Shown here: one piece after another, positions 7,011 through 50,262 of the stretch
Position numbering within the stretch: position 1 is the stretch's first letter
Layout of the letters: the number at the start of each line of letters is the position of its first letter
Assembly (NCBI GenBank): GCA_012932865.1
Contig: SAXG01000028.1
Span: forward strand, 1-64,000
Length of the DNA: 64,000 nucleotides
Direction: 5' to 3'
Origin: Amylostereum areolatum
Taxonomy: Eukaryota > Basidiomycota > Agaricomycetes > Russulales > Stereaceae
Notes under the pieces: generated by a model
The model's database searches: none
The model's input: only the letters and a program-made list of their open reading frames with translations
What the model was told of the DNA's origin: nothing
Position numbers and translations under genes: made by a program

Positions 7011-8026
7011 ATGGATGTGGCCTCTGAGTCCGAGGGCTGCGCGCCACCGTCAGAGTTCCTCCCGCACATAAAAGGTGCGTTCGCACACCCAGCAGCTCAG
7101 ACCCGACAATAGCCCCGGCTCCAGAATCAAGTGAATCTCTGACCCATCTCCGTCCGTTTCGTTCTCTCAGAGGTACGTGGATCACCCTCACCCCTCCCAA
7201 AGGTCGATCATCTGCGTCGCCTTTATATCCTTCGATTTCACGCACTTGTCCTTCAGCTCACCCGCGTTGTCAGATGCTCCCGCGAAACCATTATAGCCCA
7301 GGCTACGAAGGATACCTCCTCCCTTCTTCCTCCGTCGTCATCTCCGTCGCCGCCAACCCCTCCGATCCCTCACCCTCCCTTGAATGGTCCCTCCTGACCA
7401 CAAGCCCCTCCGGAAAAACGATAAAATACACCATCTCGCCATCAGTTTATTCCGCCGTGCAGCCCCGCCCACCCTACGCCAGCACGACCTACCACGTTCC
7501 GGGCGACAAAACGCCCCACTGCTCTCCGGGCCCGACCCGCTCTGCACGCTCGCGTACTTCGTTCCTCCTCGCTGGCGTTTCTTCCGACGCGCTCTCCTCC
7601 GAAACCCTCACCGCGCTCTCCGAAGAGGCCGTCGCCCGCTGCCACGCCGGCGTGCCAACGTATCTGATCCCTGATTACGTCGCGCGGGGCGCGGGCGCGT
7701 CTCGGCCCCCTTCGTCTGGCTCCTGCTCATGCTCGATGGAATCGAGAAACACACCTTTCCCGCGCGGCGCAGACCCAGGCGCAGGAAGAGCACTCAGGGG
7801 AACGTGCAGCGCTCCGTGCGCTGAACGTGCTCGTGTGCGTGGAAAGCTTGCAGGCGAGAATGATTGAGCTCGGCGTGAATGTTTTAAACGCCCGAGGGTT
7901 CGAAACGGCATTTCTCTGGGTACAAGACAACGATGGTGCGTGCTCCGATGTTTCTTTCGCTGTGCGCGCCGGCTGAGCGCAGGTATGTGGGTGGGCTTTC
8001 TTTGGGGGATGCAGAGCAGGCCCTAA
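7011..8026 (+). CDS. hypothetical protein, multi-exon
   Basis: I do not recognise this gene. An ATG at 7011 opens MDVASESEG...PHIK, followed by an intron from about 7072 to 7170 with GTGCG...CTCAG borders. A last intron at about 7936-7981 joins FLWVQDND to GMWVGFLWGMQSRP and a stop at 8024-8026, which is good splice-frame evidence that the 3' end is real. Between 7270 and 7790 the best-looking sequence changes frame at least twice, so exact exons cannot be set. The readable parts include a helical stretch (LRALNVLVCVESLQARMIEL). It may be frame-damaged or contain assembly indels. Confidence 0.4.
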
Positions 8027-15860: not shown

Positions 15861-16120
15861 AACATGAGAAAGTTGATGTCAATGTTATGTCTGCTGACTC
15901 TATTGGGGAATTGACCTTAGAGAACAGATGTATAGCCAAGGATTGACTCCTTGTAAGCTGTGATCTAGCTGCAATGACCTAGGAGTAGATATATTATATT
16001 ATGTAGCCCATATCTAATCATATCTTGTAATTACGATTATGGGCAGCCATCTATTTAATGGTATTTTTGCATATTATTATGATTATATTTGAATATACTC
16101 TATAGTTTGTTCAACACTAC
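15861..16120 (+). mobile_element. right part of the AT-rich TIR element
   Basis: This continues the AT-rich element interrupted by element 1 and ends in TTTGTTCAACACTAC, the inverted partner of the left terminus at 8440. It has no coding capacity. Confidence 0.45.
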
Positions 16121-42659: not shown

Positions 42660-42695
42660 TCGGATATGGTGTAACGGTTAACATTGCCGCCTCTC
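42660..42695 (+). pseudogene. 5' half of a tRNA-Glu(CTC) gene, cut at the anticodon
   Basis: The segment begins with acceptor strand TCGGATA, has the tRNA-Glu D-arm GGTGTAACGGTTAAC (also the pol III A box), the anticodon stem strand GCCGC and loop CTCTC, so anticodon CTC is at 42693-42695. Sequence after 42695 no longer fits a tRNA. The missing half (stem strand GCGGC, T-arm CGGGG-TTCGATT-CCCCG, acceptor TATCCGA) is found 6.5 kb downstream and beyond. The acceptor strands TCGGATA and TATCCGA are perfectly complementary. Confidence 0.85.
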
Positions 42696-42732
42696 TGGCG
42701 CCTGCGTGCCGAGCCTAGGCGAGGCACCAGGC

Positions 42733-42774
42733 CGCCCGTGTCAGCGGGCGCCCCCCGGTCGTGTCAGCGACCGG
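42733..42774 (+). repeat. twin stem-loops with identical TGTCAG loops
   Basis: CGCCCG-TGTCAG-CGGGCG (42733-42750) and CCGGTCG-TGTCAG-CGACCGG (42755-42774) are two perfect hairpins of 6 and 7 bp with the same 6-base loop. Their centres are about 23 bp apart, near two helical turns, and they start 38 bp inside the left end of the tRNA-targeting element. The stems differ while the loop is kept, which suggests selection on structure or on a repeated protein-binding core. They are candidate recombinase-binding sites. Confidence 0.7.
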
Positions 42775-43553
42775 TCCGTTTTCTGCCGAGCCGCAGGCGA
42801 TCGAGGGCGCGGGTCCTCTTTCGTGTGCAAGGCGAGCCTGGCGAGGCGCTCGGGCGCTCTTTCGTTTTGCGATCGGCGCGGCCGGTCTGTTCCCGCCGTC
42901 GTCCCGATAGGTCCCGATGCGCGTCCACCGCCTCCCGCCGTTCCCTCCCGTCGAACCACCACCTCTCGTCCCGCCCCACCGCAGCTGCTACCCGACGTCG
43001 TCTTTCCTATGACCCTCGCCCGCCATGATGCATGATGGCGCTCCCATCCCAGTCGCTCAACCCAACTCGCGTCATCCCCGAGCTCCCCGATGTTCCTTCG
43101 TCGACAAGTACTTCCTACCGTCCGCTTTGAGCATTGTCTCGGCACTCCACGAGCCCAGGCCCATTCTGCACGTCGGTCGAGCCCTCTGGCCGCGTCGGTC
43201 GCCCGCTCCCTGCCAACTGCAGGCAAGGAGTTCGACCGTGTCAGCCGCCAGTGTTTCGCACTCAACATAGCCCTCCCGCCGAACTGCACCCACGTCCCGC
43301 CCATCCCGCTGGTCGGCGCTCTCCCGTTTTGTCCTCGTTCTCAAGGCCTCACCCACCCCCAGCTATGCGCGAGGTCTGCCCGAGCCCCCCGCCCTGCACC
43401 TGCTCGCGATCGACATGCACTTCCCCCGATCGGGTCCCCTCCCCCGTCTCCGTCCACGTTGAGCGATGGCCCACCCTCTCCATGCATCGCACGACAGCGC
43501 GCTCCTGGCCTTTAAAGACCTCCCGCTCTCGCCTTGCCTCCCCACGTCATCTC
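42775..43553. other. GC-rich leader between left end and recombinase gene
   Basis: It is rich in GCGAGGC-like motifs, especially at 42800-42870, with one more GTGTCAG-like copy near 43236. Open frames exist, but none has clear features. It presumably holds the recombinase promoter, and it could contain additional 5' coding exons. Confidence 0.35.
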
Positions 43554-46500
43554 ATGGTCGTCTCGCCCCCCCGCAAAAAGCGCCAGCGCCAGTGCTCCCC
43601 GAAGCGATCTTGCGAAGAGCTCGTTCGCAGTCACAAGGCCGGCCTCTCCCCTCGCAGTCGCCAACTCCTCCAGCACACCTTCTCTGATCACCACTCCAGA
43701 GCTCTCGTACGTAGCACGATCGCCAGTCACGACTTCCTCAAACGTGCATGGAAACGATTCCTCGAATGTCCCGAATCTGACCCCGCCCCTGCCCCCGACC
43801 TCAGCGCCGAGATCGTCCCGGGTGTGGCACGTCTGCCCAACCCCCGTACGTTTTCCTTCCTCTCGTTCCATTTTTTTTTCGCTCATGTTCACGCTAGCCG
43901 AGGTCAAGGCATTCGCCTACTGGCTCGTCGCCAGTCGCAAAGGCCTGTTCGGTCGCTTCATCACCCCCAATACCCTCCGCGGCTACGTCTCTGCGTTCCT
44001 CGGCCTCTGGCCCCGCTACGCCCACTGCTACTTCCCTCCTAACGACATCAAGCAGGTCAAGGCTTTCCTCCTTTCGGAGGAGTTCCACACAATCGTCCCC
44101 CTCACCTCCGACTCCCGCAAAAAGAACGTCTTTGGTGTTTCCGTCCTTGATCTCCTCGTTCGCGTAGCGTTCGAAGATCTCTCCCATTTTTGCACCAACC
44201 GCATGCTCCTCCAAGTTGTCTTCACCGCCACCCTCATGGCCTTCACCGGGGAGCGCATCGGATCCATTGTCGAGAGTGAACGCTACGCCGGCTCGAACCA
44301 GGGGATTGAATGGGCTGACACCTCCTGGTGGGTAGTTCCCAACCCCCAGGATCCCGCTCACCCCCTCGTCCTCGTCTACCTCCGCCTTCGCCTCCTCAAA
44401 CGCATGCGAGCCAACGAGTCCAAAGTCAAGTCGATCGTCTTGGTTGTGGACGATCCCAAGAACCGTGCCACGTGCCCCCTCACCGCCCTCCTTGCCCTCG
44501 CCCTCGACGACAATATCTTTGTCGACGTCTCCTCCGTCCACGAAATCTTCAACCCGGAGCATCCCACCTCTCGACCTCACGTTCTGGCCATACGCCCCAG
44601 CATGCAACATATCTCCATCCTCCGCGAGGAGGTCTTTGACCCCGCCACTGCCACCTGGTCCATCTCACCCGACCGCACGTTCAAGTACTTATCTTTCGCC
44701 GCACATCTTCGCTGGCTCAGCCTTCACGCCGGTCTTCCCGGTACGTCTTCCCCCACCCTTCCCCCTTCCTGCTGACCCTTTTTTTCAGATCCCGTCAAGG
44801 CCATGGACGCCCGCACCACTGCCGCCAACTTGTTCGGACAGGAGCTGTCCGTAGACGACCACGCTGCGCTCCAGGCCCACAATCCGATGTCCTCCACTTA
44901 CTTTGTCCGTGTTCCCACCCTCTCCCTGCCCCCCTGCTGACCTTGACCTAGAAAAATTACATCAGCCACGTGTCCACACACGACCTTCAAGGCTTGGCTC
45001 GCGATCGCACCCAGGATCCGAAGCGGCGAGAGCTTGCGAGGGTGAGCGCTACTTGCCCGGTCGGTAGGTGCACTCGTTGACCGCCTTTTCAGTCTGTGAT
45101 ACAAGCTTCCGTGCTTGCCGAACGATCCGCTCCCACCCGTCTCTCGCTGGAGGACGAGGCCGAAGTGTTGGCGATCGACGAGCTTGAAACCATGCGCGCT
45201 CGCAAGCAAGTCGTATGTCCCCTCCTTTTCCTGCCTCGCGTTACCTCACCGTGTTCGCAGGTTTCAGCCAAGATCAACGCACTCAAGTCCGACGGTCCCA
45301 GCCAGGCCAAACACATTCTCATCGCCGCCCTTCAAGCCGAGTTCGACCAACTCGGGCGCGACCATGCGAACATGTATCGTCGGGAGGGGCGCGTCGTGCT
45401 TGAGCAAGCCCGTCGAGCGCACTTTGATACCGCGTCCAAGCGTGTGTTGGCCGGGGACTCTGAAACCGACGTCGTGCTCACCCAACCCATGACCGCCGCC
45501 GCCACGCCCTCGGGCAGTCACGTCTGGGGCCCCGCCGCCCAACCCGTGCCTCTCTTCGACGCGCTCACAAAGAACGGCGTCCCGTCCCACCTCGAGCAAC
45601 CCATCATCAAGGCATCTCGGCAGTTGCTCTGCCTTCTGTACGGCGAGGACGGCGTGCTCACGTCCTATTACGACCTCCACATCTTGGTCATCGAGGCCTT
45701 CCTCGCGTTACCCCCCCCGTCTCGGCGTCACTTGCTACCCGGGCGAGTATCCCAACACGGATGGAACCTGCCCTTGGTGCGGGACACCCTGCACGTCCGT
45801 ACCGCCGTTTCCCTTGGCTCGTCCCGCGCTCATTCTCTTTCCTAGGTCACTTGCGTCCAAGCAAAGCAGCGGCGGGACCGGTACCCACGTTCACCGATGC
45901 CTGCGCGCCCAGATCAAGCACGACGCCGAAGCGGCCCTCGACGGCGCGTACGTTCCCCGGCCCTGCACCTGGCACCATTGCTCGTCCTCCAAGAGCACCT
46001 TTCCCACTCGACAAGCGCTCTCCGAACACATCGCCGTTCATGTCCAGTATCTACTGCGCCACCCCGCAAGGACCTGCCTCTGGACGTTGGACGACGGTAC
46101 CACGTGTGACGGTCACCGAGAGACCTGGTGGTCCGAACACTGGGCCTCGGCGCATGGCGTGTACGTCCACGTAGACGTCAATGTTCAGTATTGTGCCATC
46201 TGCGCGACCTGGTACGTTCCCCGAGCCACAGACTTGCGCCCCCGCTCACGCTCCCTCTGCAGGATGACGGACGAGGTTGGCAATCGTGCGGTCTGGACGC
46301 TTCACTGCGCTGAACATTACAATACCCTCTTCCGGCCGTTCGAGTCGCGCGCCGGCGACATCGACGTGCGGCCGCAGGGCGTCGCCATATCCGAGTTTGA
46401 GAATCGTGTACGCTTCACTCCCGGGTCCGGATTCGGTGGCCAGTTGCCCGAATTCCACGGCCATATCACCCAAGGAGTCGCCCTCACCCCCGCCTTCTGT

Positions 46501-47694
46501 CCTTGGTGTGTGTTCGACACGTCCCTCCCCATGCAAGCGAGGATGCAGCAGTGAGTCCCTTGTTGCTCTCGCACTTTGGTTTCTCATTCTCCGTGTGCAG
46601 GTTTCATCTCTATCAGGACCAGTCACAGCACCTTCAGGCGCACGTCGACGCACTCCCCGACACACTCACGCCCTGCCCGGTGCCGTCGTGCGGGACCCGC
46701 TCGCTCTCTCGCTTCGACCTTCTCCGCCACATGGTCTCCGTCCACCGCCTCCCCGTTTGTGGCAGCACTTCCGCCTCTCGGACGCGAACCTTGTGCTTGC
46801 CCGAGCTCGTTCCCTCCTCTAAGCGCAAGGGCAAGGAGCCGTATCGCACGCCCTCCCCACAGCCCGGACCCTCTCGCGATGTGATCATCATCGAGGACTC
46901 GGACGACAAAACTCCCGCCGCGAGGTCTGTGATCGAGCTGGATTCGGAGGGGGAGGTTGCGCCTCCTCCCAAACGTCCACGTATGAACATTTTGGACCTT
47001 CAACCCCAGGTACGATACCCGCGCCTTTTGACCGACCGTGCCTGATGTTCCCCGCAGATTCAGGGCTTTTGCCACGGCTGCTCTCACTACCTCTTGGACA
47101 TTGACCTTCATCTCGCCGCTGTCCGGCCGCTGAGCCGATGCGCGACCAAGTCGTCCTACAGTCCCGCGGACTACAAAACAAAAAAGCGGTTGTCTGGTCC
47201 AGTCCGCTGGACCCGTCCTGCAGCCTCCGAGGTGAGTGAATGAAACCCGGACCCGTCGTCGATCATTGACCATGCTTTCCAGGTCATGCCGGGTTCGACC
47301 TCCAAGGGCTCTCGTCAACACCGGTGCCCCGTCTGTCGTCGCACCTTCCACGACATCCGCGATCACCTGCCCAACGACGCTTGCGACACCAACATATTCT
47401 ACGACGCAAGCGGTACGCGTCGCCAGCTGGAAGAGTGGTTACTCGAGGCCCCATCGCCCACAGACATCTTCGCTCGCGTCCGTCACTCACTCTCCTCGCT
47501 TTGCACCGGCTGACCGCATACCCCAGACTCACAAGTGCTTGGACTGCCGAAAAACATTCCCGGACATTCTTGAGCACGCTGACCGCATCCAGCGGGAATC
47601 GACGCGTTGCCCCGCCACCCGATTCGTCTCCAAGAAGGCGGACGGTTCTTGGTCGGATCCGACGCTGGTCGCAGATTACAAGCAGAGTGGCTGA
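43554..47694 (+). CDS. DUF3435-like tyrosine recombinase with C-terminal zinc fingers
   Basis: The N-terminal basic stretch (PPRKKRQRQ) is followed by EVKAFAYWLVASRKGLFGRF, TPNTLRGYVSAFLGLWPRYA and a helical core. The catalytic part has FTGERIGSIVESERY (first Arg), DPKNRATCPLTALLALALDD, LSFAAHLRWLSLHAGL, MDARTTAANLFGQ (second Arg region) and HNPMSSTYFVRNYISHVSTH with the candidate nucleophile Tyr, then HDLQGLARDRTQDPK. This order resembles DUF3435 recombinases; the usual RRG and GHS motifs are replaced by DAR and AHN. The C-terminal third carries C2H2-like fingers (CTWHHC...HIAVH; CPVPSC...HMVSVH) and CxxC fingers (CPVCRRTFHD, CLDCRKTFPD). Introns are 43846-43897, 44741-44788, about 44904-44950, 45034-45092, 45212-45260 and others. 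Slips at an A run (44951) and a C run (about 45712) break the frame. The start at 43554 is tentative. Confidence 0.7.
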
Positions 47695-47813
47695 AAGTGT
47701 ACATTACATCTGCTTCACCAATAAAAGTACAAGTGTTCTGCTTCACCAATAAAAGTACAAGTGCTCTGCTTCACCAAAAAAAGTTCAAGTGTGTCATTGA
47801 CACATCGTACAAT
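47695..47813. repeat. three-copy tandem repeat between the convergent genes
   Basis: A 29-bp unit, CTGCTTCACCAATAAAAGTACAAGTG with small variants, occurs at about 47709, 47738 and 47767. The first two copies contain AATAAA, so the array may act as the polyadenylation region for the recombinase gene. The stop codons of the two genes are only about 120 bp apart. Confidence 0.7.
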
Positions 47814-49060
47814 TTACGCTATGCCCGAGCCCGCGGTGGTGGAGGGTTGATCGTCGAGAAAGCGAACCACGTACTGCTCCACCAGCGGCCCTCCCAGAAA
47901 GTGTGCCAGAGACAGCAGGGCCTTGACAGTATTCGTATGCCCGGCGCTCAGAGCATGCGCATCGTCTTCCGAGGATTGAACCTCCTCGTAGAGATCGTCG
48001 AGGAGGTATCGGAACGGTTTTGAGCGGTGGTGGTAGCACGAGCCGCAACGCCAGGCAGGATCCAGGAGGACGGCGGGTCCAAGCTGATAATAATCAGCGT
48101 CAGCATCCCGACCGCACCCAAGTTGAGACTAACCGCATGGTACATCTCCCGCAGTCGTACGCGTTCCCTGCCTTGCTCGGTGAACCAGAACTTGAATTTG
48201 TCGCGTTCCGCGCGATAGGTCGGGTCCTTCTTGTCTCCGATTTCGGCAACGTGTTTCTTGTCCAGCGGAAGCCAAGCCTCGAAGAGATCGTGAATGAACG
48301 CGGCCTGGCGCACTTTTCCGCCGTTGCCGGCACGCTTGGCCTCGTAGTTGTGTTGAAACCGGAGAACCTCAATCTTGCGATAGAGCTCGAACAGCCAGAC
48401 TACGCCGTTCGGTTCCTTTTGGAGCGCGCCCAGACGTTTGACGATGCGGACATCTAGGGACTCGTCTTGCAGCTCGATCGACTCCAGACAGAGTGCAGAT
48501 AGGTCGTGAGAGGTGGGAGGAGAGACAAGATAGCCCCAACTGTCCCCGCGTCCGTCTTCGGGCTGTTCGTATCCACGGAGGGCACGCGCCAGTGCAGGGT
48601 CCTCGACGAGAGAATAGTGTCTGGCCATCGGGGGTTGGATGACCAGTGCCGAAAGCTCGTCGGCGCTGACGGGCTCATCGGAGGGGAGAGCGAGAAGGGC
48701 CTGTAGACGTGTCTGTCCTGCAACTTGATCGGTGTTCTGCTTCCTTCCCTGTGGCTGCGTGTCGTTTTGGTCGTACGCGTCACCTCCCCCTGCCTCTGTC
48801 GTCCCTTCAAGCCGCTGTTCGTCCCGACGTCCATCTGGTTCGGCCTCCTCCTGAACAGCCTCCTCGTCGGAATCCACAGGACTTGATGCGTCCTGCCTTG
48901 CTAGATCGCCAATAGTGCCAAGTTCGGCGTGAATCTTCTTCCGGGCTTCACGGTCGTACGGTGCACCAGATGCGCGGCGGTTACGCTGAAGGTAGCGGCG
49001 CAGGGCTCGTGCGAGTTTGACCGTGTCAGACTCGGAAAGCTTGTCGACGTCAAGTCCCAT
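47814..49060 (-). CDS. unknown protein carried by the tRNA-targeting element
   Basis: I do not recognise this gene. From the ATG at 49060 it reads MGLDVDKLSESDTVKLARAL then RRYLQRNRRASGAPYDREAR, an acidic/Gln-rich linker, SALVIQPPMARHYSLVEDPA, VVWLFELYRKIEVLRFQHNY, and a conserved-looking block FIHDLFEAWLPLDKKHVAEI followed by RDKFKFWFTEQGRERVRLRE and a hydrophobic helix GAVGMLTLIII. After a frame change near 48020 the tail FRYLLDDLYEEVQSSEDDAH, LLSLAHFLGGPLVEQYVVRF ends at a stop at 47814-47816. The frame change may be an unseen intron or an indel. Size is about 415 residues. A role in the element's mobility or its persistence is only guessed from position. Confidence 0.65.
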
Positions 49061-49171
49061 CTTGATACCAGGGACAGAGACAAGATGGAGGGCAGAAACA
49101 AGAGATGCAGGCTCACTCACTGGCAGACGTCATCCAAGTGGCAACCACCACGTGACCCTGATTCGGCTCTT

Positions 49172-49245
49172 TCTGTCGACTCTCGACTCTCGAGGATGTA
49201 AGCTGTAAGTACTAAGTACGATTCTACGGTACGGAATGCTGTTTT
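49172..49245 (+). repeat. right terminus of the tRNA-targeting element (copy 1)
   Basis: TCTGTCGACTCTCGAGGATGTA-type sequence, here with an internal CTCTCGA duplication, followed by GATTCTACGGTACGGAATGCT and then GTTTTC at the tRNA junction. The same terminal sequence recurs at 50023 and 50187, next to further tRNA-Glu 3' halves. Confidence 0.7.
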
Positions 49246-49280
49246 CGCGGCAGCTCGGGGTTCGATTCCCCGTCTCCGAA
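49246..49280 (+). pseudogene. 3' half of a tRNA-Glu gene (copy 1)
   Basis: C38, stem strand GCGGC, AGCT, T-arm CGGGG-TTCGATT-CCCCG (B box), acceptor TCTCCGA and a final A, followed by a T5 pol III terminator at 49284. Its acceptor strand has one mismatch with the 5' half at 42660. Everything 5' of the anticodon loop is replaced by the element end. Confidence 0.85.
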
Positions 49281-49915
49281 TTCTTTTTGCCCAATTTTTG
49301 CCATTGGCCAAAGCCACACTCCGAGCGCCCGCGACTCGCGAGGACTCAGGAGTCATTCCGAGTCAAGACTGACTTCAAGCTTGATATATGAGATCCTATT
49401 CTTTCTGCTGTAAGTTCTTTTCCTAGTGACAATACTATGAGTCCCGTGCCAGCTGACGGTGGCACAGAAGTACTGGACTCGATCGACGGTACAACATTAA
49501 TGTCGTACTTGTATGATCTTTCTTGAATCAAATGGTAGCACACACACTAACACCGTTTTTTCAATAGGTTTATGTATCTTCCAAAGTCCTGTCCCATCTC
49601 GCATGTGTTTTCTCAGAAATCCATCCATCCACGGTTCACCCAAGCTTCCGATAGCGCCATTCTCATAAACTCTCACCCAATCCACCCAGTTACGCTATCT
49701 CGCGGGCCCCGTCCATGCTCGACTGCCCCGAAGACGCCAGAACCCTCTTTGGAGACGCCAAAGCGGCCGACATACCGCGGGACCGACGCGATGTTTTGTC
49801 GCTAAAGGGCTTCGTCGCATTTACCCTTTTTCCGATTCCTGTGAGCTCTCATCTGCTCTCATCCCTTCTTGCTGGTCAGGGAGCATCAAGGTTTGTTGCG
49901 TTTGGATCGAGTTTT
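49281..49915. other. segment between two tRNA-Glu 3' halves
   Basis: About 635 bp with no recognisable gene. An open frame from 49715 (MLDCPEDARTLFGDAKAADI) is short and unassigned. The last 30 bases before 49911 (AGCATCAAGG...GGATCGA) resemble the inner part of the element's right terminus at 50232-50262, so this may be a degraded second element end. Confidence 0.4.
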
Positions 49916-49950
49916 CGCGGCAGCTCGGGGTTCGATTCCCCGTATCCGAA
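49916..49950 (+). pseudogene. 3' half of a tRNA-Glu gene (copy 2)
   Basis: Stem strand GCGGC, an intact T-arm and acceptor TATCCGA, which is perfectly complementary to TCGGATA of the 5' half at 42660. It is preceded by GTTTTC as in the other copies and followed by its own T runs (pol III terminator). Confidence 0.85.
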
Positions 49951-50230
49951 TATAGCGTTTCTTTGTGGCTTTTTGGATTTTTTTGACTCCCCACCAGACA
50001 CATGAAGTAGTATAATTTATTATCTGTCGACTCTCGAGGATGTACGAATCTACGATTCTACCTTGGCGAGATATCGAGTTTTCGCGGCAGCTCGGGTTCG
50101 ATTCCCCGTATCCGAATATAATGTTTCTTTGTGGCTTTTTGATTTTTTTGACTCCCCACCAGACACATGAAGTAGTTAATTTATTATCTGTCGACTCTCG
50201 AGGATGTACGATTCTACGGTACGAAATGCT
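49951..50230 (+). repeat. tandem array: tRNA flank plus element right end
   Basis: A unit of about 167 bp is repeated: tRNA-Glu 3' half, then a flank (TTTCTTTGTGGCTTTTTG, GACTCCCCACCAGACACATG, AATTTATTATC), then the element's right terminus (TCTGTCGACTCTCGAGGATG...). The flank copies at 49955-50022 and 50119-50186 are nearly identical. The last terminus (50187-50262) is not followed by a tRNA half. Confidence 0.8.
50083..50116 (+). pseudogene. 3' half of a tRNA-Glu gene (copy 3)
   Basis: As copy 2, but one G is missing from the T-stem (CGGG-TTCGATT-CCCCG). Acceptor TATCCGA is complementary to the 5' half at 42660. Confidence 0.85.
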
Positions 50231-50262
50231 CAAGCAGCATCAACCTTGGCGAGATATCGATA

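Follow-up and report, generated by a model that had tools for sequence, protein, structure and literature searches.

The window, the whole 64,000-nucleotide stretch of Amylostereum areolatum DNA analyzed here (contig C104), carries a tRNA-Glu(CTC) gene that is interrupted in its anticodon loop by an insertion encoding a recombinase and one partner gene (Table 1). An earlier note on the same DNA had placed a tyrosine-recombinase element inside a tRNA-Glu gene whose 5' half ends at anticodon base 36, and both claims are borne out: the 36-base 5' half is identical to the corresponding bases of intact tRNA-Glu(CTC) genes on C2 (two genes) and C50, and the same split recurs on a second contig, C177. 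Three genes on C117 differ from this half by 1–2 bases, and a C1 gene differs by one base and one indel. As a control for chance resemblance, a 21-mer of the 5' half gave nine matches with up to two mismatches in the 57-Mb genome, a 26-mer of the 3' half gave 12, and the reversed patterns gave none. Rfam and ARAGORN detected no tRNA in the window, as expected of a split gene.

Table 1. Features of the interrupted tRNA-Glu locus (window coordinates).
Feature	Position	Strand	Basis or remark
tRNA-Glu(CTC) 5' half, bases 1–36 (A box, D arm, 5' anticodon stem, anticodon CTC)	42660..42695	+	identical to intact C2 and C50 genes
Whole insertion, C104 haplotype, 7,210 bp, between tRNA bases 36/37	42696..49905	+	joined halves and junction check
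Element core, 6,551 bp (6,548 bp in second haplotype); right end uncertain within about 49235–49246	42696..49246	+	99% identical C177 copy between tRNA-Glu halves
Left-end segment (first three bases are tRNA); also after orphan tRNA-Glu(TTC) 5' half on C101	42693..42739	+	alignment, shuffle test, genome-wide pattern
DUF3435 tyrosine-recombinase (captain-like) gene, N-terminal and catalytic part	43554..45794	+	Pfam PF11917
Inferred captain exons	43554–43845, 43898–44740, 44789–44904, 44952–45041, 45093–45212, 45261–45794	+	
C-terminal cysteine/histidine-rich (possible zinc-finger) region, same gene	45712..47694	+	piecewise homology to P0001 residues 465–967
Partner gene, 398 aa, two inferred exons, no known domain	47817..49060	-	convergent to recombinase
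Foreign tRNA-Glu 3' half, acceptor TCTCCGA	49242..49279	+	read as carry-over from donor tRNA-Glu gene
626 bp of flanking DNA	49280..49905	+	read as donor flank carry-over
Host tRNA-Glu gene's own 3' part: A37, 9-nt intron, C38, bases 39–73	49906..49949	+	
Tandem copy of 3' part with intron, T arm one G short	50073..50115	+	self-match 49906–50054 vs. 50073–50218, 96%

On the right side, a first tRNA-Glu 3' half begins at 49246/49247, 6,551 bp past the 5' half, where the earlier note had put it, but a better partner lies ~670 bp further on. The accompanying claim that the two halves pair as one tRNA needs correction: the 49247–49279 half leaves one mismatched acceptor pair and, unlike the 3' part at 49906–49949 and the tandem copy of the latter, has no A37 or intron, and it was rejected as the partner. 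Joining the 5' half in silico to 49906–49951 restores a tRNA-Glu(CTC) whose acceptor stem pairs throughout and which has a 9-nt intron; the tandem copy likewise supplies A37, the intron, and no acceptor mismatch, but with the shortened T arm. We chose 49906–49949 because of the acceptor pair, A37, and the intron, and not because of the verdict of ARAGORN, which calls tRNA-Glu for all four joins of halves tried and, when run with long introns, reported a questionable tRNA-Cys on C177 and overlooked some copies that the sequence shows clearly, as in L048 and L049. In intact tRNA-Glu genes, the intron (10 nt in CTC genes, 16 nt in TTC genes) follows base 37, and the insertion point therefore adjoins it. 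With both parts intact and the intron kept in the 3' part, the gene might be taken for a functional split or trans-spliced tRNA gene; this is hardly credible for a gene whose A box (5' part) and B box (3' part) lie 7.2 kb apart around an insert that encodes a recombinase, in a genome with other intact tRNA-Glu(CTC) genes. We read the gene as broken: the insertion between the two boxes should silence this copy, a loss that several intact tRNA-Glu(CTC) genes elsewhere in the genome make tolerable for the host.

The recombinase gene is the first at the 5' end of the element and points inward, its ATG (43554) lying 858 bp inside the left junction. The spliced model matches Pfam PF11917 with 88 bits (profile positions 16–351 of 418; cut-off 25.8) and exon 2 alone with 43 bits, in agreement with the inward DUF3435-like recombinase and single partner gene that the earlier note had recognized between the halves. 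A tyrosine-recombinase fold is predicted from the family match and the literature, with residue 420 of the gene model as the putative catalytic Tyr; a sequence comparison of the related protein P0001 with the PDB gave no match. The homologous reading frame shifts at a run of eight C residues (45711–45718) present in both haplotypes (C104 and C177), where the captain frame may be broken (or misassembled), so that the window copy is possibly dead. No function is claimed for the partner gene, because it has no match in Pfam and its relative P0002 none in NCBIfam, its AlphaFold model from two sequences is of poor quality (mean pLDDT 54.9), and Foldseek offers no match better than E = 2.1.

The database relatives found for both genes all belong to Amylostereum chailletii (Russulales), where P0001 and P0002 come from deposited contigs of 7.6 kb and 1.4 kb. 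P0002, a partial protein, is 83% identical to the window's partner, which has no other close copy in its own genome; P0003 is ~99% identical to a DUF3435 copy on C1; and the best match of P0001 in the window's genome reaches 85%. Such identities would fit copies that differ between assemblies.

Besides the 6.55-kb core, the 7,210-bp insertion contains the 3' half of a foreign tRNA-Glu gene and, next to it, 626 bp of flanking DNA. The sequence from 49387 to 49905 is ~90% identical to DNA downstream of an intact tRNA-Glu gene on C1, and this homology ends at 49905, exactly at the tRNA 36/37 junction. Apart from C104, the carried-over flank was found in one place, beside that C1 gene. From these matches, the foreign 3' half and its flank are read as a probable transduction in a jump between tRNA-Glu genes. 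The two right ends observed differ, one falling before 49247 and the other before 49906. With right ends varying, the two ends of the 7,210-bp insertion have only TGG in common, and no direct repeat longer than 3 bp was seen. The border of the third 3' half, a tandem copy, shows ATCGA microhomology.

C177 has the same split, the same flanks, and 99%-identical element DNA and is apparently the other haplotype (allele) of the C104 locus. Non-CpG divergence between the two is 0–0.2% per kb in the element vs. 1.4–1.9% in the adjoining 1.7 kb. Independent insertions in the two haplotypes were considered and dropped: in a flank comparison reaching 13.5 kb, the flanks at 37–40 kb are likewise only 0.1–0.3% diverged. 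Chimeric joins at short tRNA repeats could also have produced the split in assembly, given that the tRNA halves are repeated sequence, that the segment 49247–49905 is present on C104 only, and that C177 begins only 274 bases before its 3' half. Such an artifact is nonetheless very improbable, as the repeats measure just 33–41 bp and the two contigs differ by SNPs yet have in common the left junction, the entire core, and the border between core and 3' half. Intact tRNA-Glu genes with the same flanks, for which the earlier note had recommended a search, were not found: across the 57-Mb genome, the 5' flank is present only in C104 and C177, with no natural empty allele, and we infer the empty site from the joined flanks and the intact paralogs.

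The search for other split tRNA-Glu genes, also recommended in the earlier note, was positive in part, yielding C177 (with recombinase), an orphan half with the element's left end on C101, and an orphan half by itself on C56; in the 57-Mb genome, a full recombinase inside a split tRNA-Glu was found only at the C104 locus and its C177 allele. A pattern for tRNA-Glu 5' halves gave 14 matches, one of which (C1:2143793) was rejected as an orphan half, being an intact tRNA-Gly(CCC); among the 13 tRNA-Glu halves, four (on C104, C177, C56, and C101) have no adjacent 3' half. Each of the two tRNA-Glu(TTC) genes found lies closely downstream of an orphan 5' half. On C101, a diverged version of the element's left end comes after an orphan tRNA-Glu(TTC) 5' half whose anticodon stem is degraded; the left-end alignment scores 43, against a maximum of 32 among 2,000 dinucleotide shuffles. 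A left-end pattern derived from C104 and C101 matches only C104, C101, and C177 in 57 Mb (reversed control, 0), a result in which only the absence of others is new, since the pattern was built from copies it then found. On C56, the orphan 5' half matches the neighboring gene at 32 of its first 35 bases and diverges after base 35, with no recognizable element DNA following it.

Elsewhere, C1 holds a further DUF3435 copy (60% amino acid identity over residues 35–417), 6 kb from an intact tRNA-Glu(CTC); the host flanks are tandemly duplicated around this captain remnant, and no clean 5'-half junction is left. A complete tRNA-Glu stands downstream of the C56 and C101 scars and of the C1 remnant. 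The earlier note had tied specific targeting to where other recombinase copies lie, and on this point the result is divided. The C1 copy lies near a tRNA-Glu gene, whereas the 10 kb examined at C137 and at C111, each with fragments matching captain DNA at 88% identity, contains no tRNA-Glu half, and the 9–10 kb examined at the DUF3435 relatives on C150 and C124 contains no tRNA.

Finding the recombinase in a split tRNA-Glu gene, together with scars at about the same position elsewhere, suggests that the element is mobile and targets a single kind of tRNA gene. We favor, with a probability of roughly 0.8, a small basidiomycete DNA element with a 6.55-kb core, mobilized by its own DUF3435 tyrosine recombinase and site-specific for the tRNA-Glu anticodon loop, at bases 36/37 next to the intron. 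Directly visible in the DNA are the junction, the split on two contigs, scarring next to two further tRNA-Glu genes, the left-end position of the recombinase gene, and the internal 3' half with its C1-like flank. The same arrangement could have arisen from a single entry into one tRNA-Glu gene by any means, with the remaining scars and the patchwork of 3' halves made by later homologous or microhomology-mediated recombination and tandem duplication among tRNA-Glu copies. The 3' halves are direct repeats able to recombine, the third of them is tandem with microhomology at its border, the C1 host flanks are duplicated, a deletion between 3' halves would turn the C104 form into that of C177, and the C56 half has no element DNA after it. 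This course of events is unlikely, however, as it leaves unexplained the exact 36/37 junctions on both sides of the insertion, the diverged left end after the C101 tRNA-Glu(TTC) half, and the end of the C56 half at base 35.

For a site-specific element, the recombinase would recognize the dyad-symmetric anticodon region, either the anticodon stem or a CTCTC-ATC-GAGAG anticodon/intron helix. The element would travel in circular form, the circle being opened at the left end of the element, and on at least one occasion the right side would have been imprecise, with a 3' half and 626 bp of flanking DNA coming along from the donor. The circular intermediate, the crossover details, and present activity are parts of this scheme that we infer. 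A bolder version, possible but held only tentatively, is an element equivalent, in a eukaryote, to the tRNA-borne integrative elements of prokaryotes: a DUF3435 lineage dedicated to the tRNA-Glu anticodon loop would shuttle as circles with donor tRNA halves and flanks and, in some insertions (C56, C101, and C1), rebuild a complete, possibly hybrid, tRNA at one border, making tRNA genes both the target and an exchanged cassette.

Tyrosine recombinases landing in tRNA genes are a hallmark of bacterial and archaeal elements. If the favored reading is true, targeting of the anticodon loop by a fungal DUF3435 protein represents either convergence or deep conservation of target choice, and the Starship captain superfamily widens to small, RNA-gene-homing elements in Agaricomycetes. 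The compact two-gene system would also suit tests of captain target recognition. Orphan tRNA halves ending at the anticodon loop provide a search rule for such elements or scars in other eukaryotic genomes.

The closest known kind are Starship captains, among which some break up 5S rRNA genes. Enterprise-family Osiris Starships insert into 5S rDNA, with an inward DUF3435 captain as the first gene at the left end, and Starships are counted from a length of at least about 15 kb (PMC12153272, PMC12134995). The window element resembles them in its inward first gene at the left end and in the fragmentation of a multicopy small RNA gene. It differs in length, in having one partner gene and no large cargo, in its target (tRNA-Glu vs. 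5S), and in its basidiomycete host. Starships have terminal direct repeats and sometimes terminal inverted repeats; at the ends of the window insertion, of which the right one varies, no direct repeat of more than 3 bp was seen. Captains, described in the earlier note as known from Pezizomycotina, are not confined to that group; Starships are reported in the basidiomycete Tremella fuciformis (PMC13066641). Cryptons, fungal tyrosine-recombinase DNA transposons with proposed circle movement (PMC3212892), are alike in being tyrosine-recombinase DNA elements in fungi; the window recombinase is of the DUF3435 type, however, with no GCR1_C (the fungal Crypton group) among its Pfam matches. Cryptons have short terminal direct repeats of 4–6 bp (6 bp in most published fungal ones); the repeat seen at the ends of the window insertion is 3 bp at most.

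Among the literature matches listed, no report describes a DUF3435 element in tRNA genes or a tyrosine-recombinase element inside fungal tRNA genes. Dada DNA transposons enter tRNA genes, some families around the anticodon, but they form another superfamily with 6–7-bp target-site duplications, and the portions of the source drawn on here mention no tyrosine recombinase (PMC8869645); no such 6–7-bp repeat is present at the ends of the window insertion. Cryptophyte polinton-like viruses are likewise eukaryotic elements with a tyrosine recombinase; in the cited portion of their description, no tRNA genes lie within 1 kb of the insertions (PMC12220804). Prokaryotic tRNA-targeting integrases cross over in the anticodon loop, where the palindromic stem resembles core sites, and related archaeal integrases target two tRNA-Glu genes (PMC8371274). 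The window element shares with them a tyrosine recombinase and, at bases 36/37, an insertion in the anticodon loop. Intact tRNAs are restored by the prokaryotic elements, whereas the tRNA stays broken in C104 and C177; at C56, C101, and C1, a complete tRNA-Glu stands downstream, where an intact gene may have been reconstituted.

The tRNA-Glu(CTC) gene is interrupted in its anticodon loop by an element that carries a DUF3435 tyrosine-recombinase (‘captain’) gene and one convergent partner gene. As the earlier note had it, the 5′ half is exactly bases 1–36, and the inward captain and its partner were both found within the insertion. The half matches intact genes on contigs C2 and C50 of the same genome. 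TGGCGCC directly follows base 36, and 6,551 bp foreign to the tRNA lead to a tRNA-Glu 3′ half. That nearer half, proposed earlier as the match, does lie there, but it leaves an acceptor mismatch, and a second 3′ half pairs better: with 42695 linked directly to 49906, the result is a tRNA-Glu(CTC) whose acceptor stem pairs throughout and whose intron follows base 37. ARAGORN reported tRNA-Glu for all four joins tried (3′ halves at 49242, 49906, and 50073, and that of contig C177), and thus cannot by itself pick the partner. On sequence grounds, the likeliest form of the interrupted gene is 42660–42695 plus 49906–49949, with an insertion of 7,210 bp (42696–49905) between bases 36 and 37. Intact tRNA-Glu genes of this genome also have an intron after base 37, of 10 nt (CTC) or 16 nt (TTC); when folded, that of the CTC genes is able to pair with the anticodon (CTCTC-ATC-GAGAG). 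Sequence resembling the element's right end (TGTCGACTCTCGAGGATGTACGATTCTAC...) occurs twice in the tRNA 3′ flank (50026–50083 and 50190–50234), ~75 bp beyond the 3′ halves.

Features of the split tRNA-Glu gene and its inserted element (window coordinates)
Feature	Position	Strand	Remark
tRNA-Glu(CTC) bases 1–36 (5′ half)	42660–42695		no difference from the two intact genes on C2 and that on C50
Captain gene model	from 43554		six inferred exons
Partner gene	47817–49060	−	without Pfam match
Element right end	about 49235–49246		
Nearer tRNA-Glu 3′ half	49247–49279		acceptor strand TCTCCGA, one mismatch with 5′ half
Second tRNA-Glu 3′ half	49906–49949		starts with A37 and 9-nt intron; acceptor TATCCGA
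Third tRNA-Glu 3′ half	50084		part of tandem copy of 49906–50072

From the left, the insertion comprises the left end, in which GTGCC/GGCAC was recognized by eye as an inverted repeat, the captain gene, the partner gene, the right end, the foreign 3′ half, and 626 bp. Positions 49387–49905 share ~90% identity with the stretch downstream of an intact tRNA-Glu(CTC) gene of C1. Across the whole genome, this flank turned up there and in the window's own contig (C104) and nowhere else, and the homology to C1 stops at 49905, the final base before A37. The simplest reading is that a previous copy resided in a different tRNA-Glu gene, one whose flank was C1-like, and that the move here would have carried along that gene's 3′ half and flank.

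C177, probably the other haplotype, shares the 5′ flank of C104, is likewise split after base 36, and has a core (42696–49246 in C104) 99% identical. Its 3′ half reads TATCCGA with the native flank directly after, and it has neither the TCTCCGA half and its flank nor the tandem copy. A deletion between 3′ halves would convert C104 into C177, an order favored by ATCGAGTTTTC preceding both later 3′ halves in C104. Changes from CpG to TpG/CpA account for 26 of the 32 substitutions in the core, every one on the C104 side, while the near flanks (41.0–42.7 kb and the 3′ half) differ by 71 substitutions, of which 25 are CpG-type and run in both directions; the bias resembles what methylation-linked or RIP-like decay of a single copy would leave.

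The captain's match to PF11917 scores 43 bits before splicing and 88 bits after it, when it extends to profile position 351 of 418. By comparison with tyrosine-recombinase motifs, we take R217, R387, H409, and Y420 to be candidate catalytic residues; at the R387 position, the C1 relative has His. The Cys/His-rich C-terminal region runs to 47694, but in another frame beyond a run of eight C (45711–45718) that C104 and C177 both carry, so the captain gene may be broken. The partner has two distant paralogs (31–33%; C122:360679–361527 and C45:839151–839777) with no tRNA in the 3.6–3.8 kb examined, so it may derive from a host gene.

Against 5.8 billion proteins, the captain matched only Amylostereum chailletii and the partner only A. 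chailletii P0002 (83%), among the best 7,995–7,996 candidates by common words scored per search, which may miss rarer relatives. P0001 shows 48% identity over 84% of the captain query, and a profile search added P0003, which differs from the C1 copy by three mismatches over 299 residues, a 17-residue gap aside; this likeness makes A. chailletii or a very close relative the probable source of the window. The top match of P0001 within our genome is 85%, and a search with the partner found no other close copy there, which suggests that element copies vary between assemblies.

A whole-genome pattern search, covering tRNA-Glu 5′ halves only, gave 14 matches, one being a tRNA-Gly; 4 of the other 13 lack an adjoining 3′ half (C104, C177, C56:710449, and C101:346092). 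The expectation of further split genes carrying the recombinase held in part: C177, apparently allelic, has it, and C56 and C101 have orphan halves and no full recombinase. Each of these two orphans sits upstream of one of the two intact tRNA-Glu(TTC) genes identified, at a distance of 181 bp (C56) or 472 bp (C101), and copies its 5′ half. The C56 orphan matches its neighbor at 32 of the first 35 bases, diverges beyond, and is followed by no recognizable element DNA. The C101 orphan matches at 26 of the first 28, its anticodon stem degraded after, and the DNA that follows, selected following a BLAST match and then shuffle-tested, resembles the element's left end (score 43; none of 2,000 dinucleotide shuffles of the segment exceeded 32). 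A left-end pattern built from C104 and C101 matched C104, C177, and C101, all known beforehand; what is new is its absence elsewhere in the genome, including away from tRNA-Glu, the reversed pattern also giving none. On C1, a captain relative (60% amino acid identity over residues 35–417) lies 6 kb upstream of the intact tRNA-Glu(CTC), its left junction decayed as judged by eye; tandem host-flank copies lie on either side of it (97.7% identical over 430 bp, 78–79% in longer blocks). Several kb of host DNA around both (C1:2075560–2090000) are tandemly duplicated, 78–98% identical in blocks. Elsewhere on C1 (2143300–2144100), a repeat after a tRNA-Gly(CCC) is 93% identical to DNA ~65 bp downstream of a C2 tRNA-Glu and 76% identical to DNA immediately 3′ of the C56 tRNA-Glu; a 58-bp piece of this region matches window 16062–16119. 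The repeat is perhaps a separate family landing beside tRNA genes.

The anticodon region is dyad-symmetric and is described as a crossover site of prokaryotic integrases (PMC8371274); by analogy, we infer that the DUF3435 enzyme also uses it. A circular form of the element, opened at its left end, would be joined by the enzyme to the tRNA gene at the bond between bases 36 and 37. C104, C177, and C101 share a constant left end, and the right end varies (49246, 49905), as would be expected if excision were imprecise on that side. Hypothetically, a move that instead brought along an upstream flank plus 5′ half would yield, in order, a 5′ half left as an orphan, the element, and a hybrid tRNA that is complete; this is the layout at C56, C101, and, decayed, C1.

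Recombinase copies at unrelated sites, which the earlier note said would count against specific targeting, do occur as fragments and relatives. For the captain-DNA fragments (88%) on C137 and C111, the 10 kb examined contains no tRNA-Glu half, DUF3435 relatives on C150 and C124 have no tRNA in the 9–10 kb examined, and the C56 captain fragment (722.8 kb) is 12 kb from the local tRNA-Glu on the opposite strand; the case for specificity therefore comes from a single full locus together with its allele, plus two scars. Further relatives, on C85 and C101:579k, are about 35% identical.

In our literature search, no DUF3435 element of such small size was reported from tRNA genes. Unlike Cryptons, the element shows no GCR1_C domain, and the tRNA is not restored in its two complete copies (C104 and C177). 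Its probable mode of action is that of a captain-driven element; in size and cargo, it falls short of a Starship. DUF3435 recombinases are Starship captains, and Starships are reported from the basidiomycete Tremella fuciformis (PMC13066641). A captain targeting an RNA gene is already known in kind: in Aspergillus fumigatus, Osiris Starships integrate into 5S rDNA and break it up (PMC12153272).
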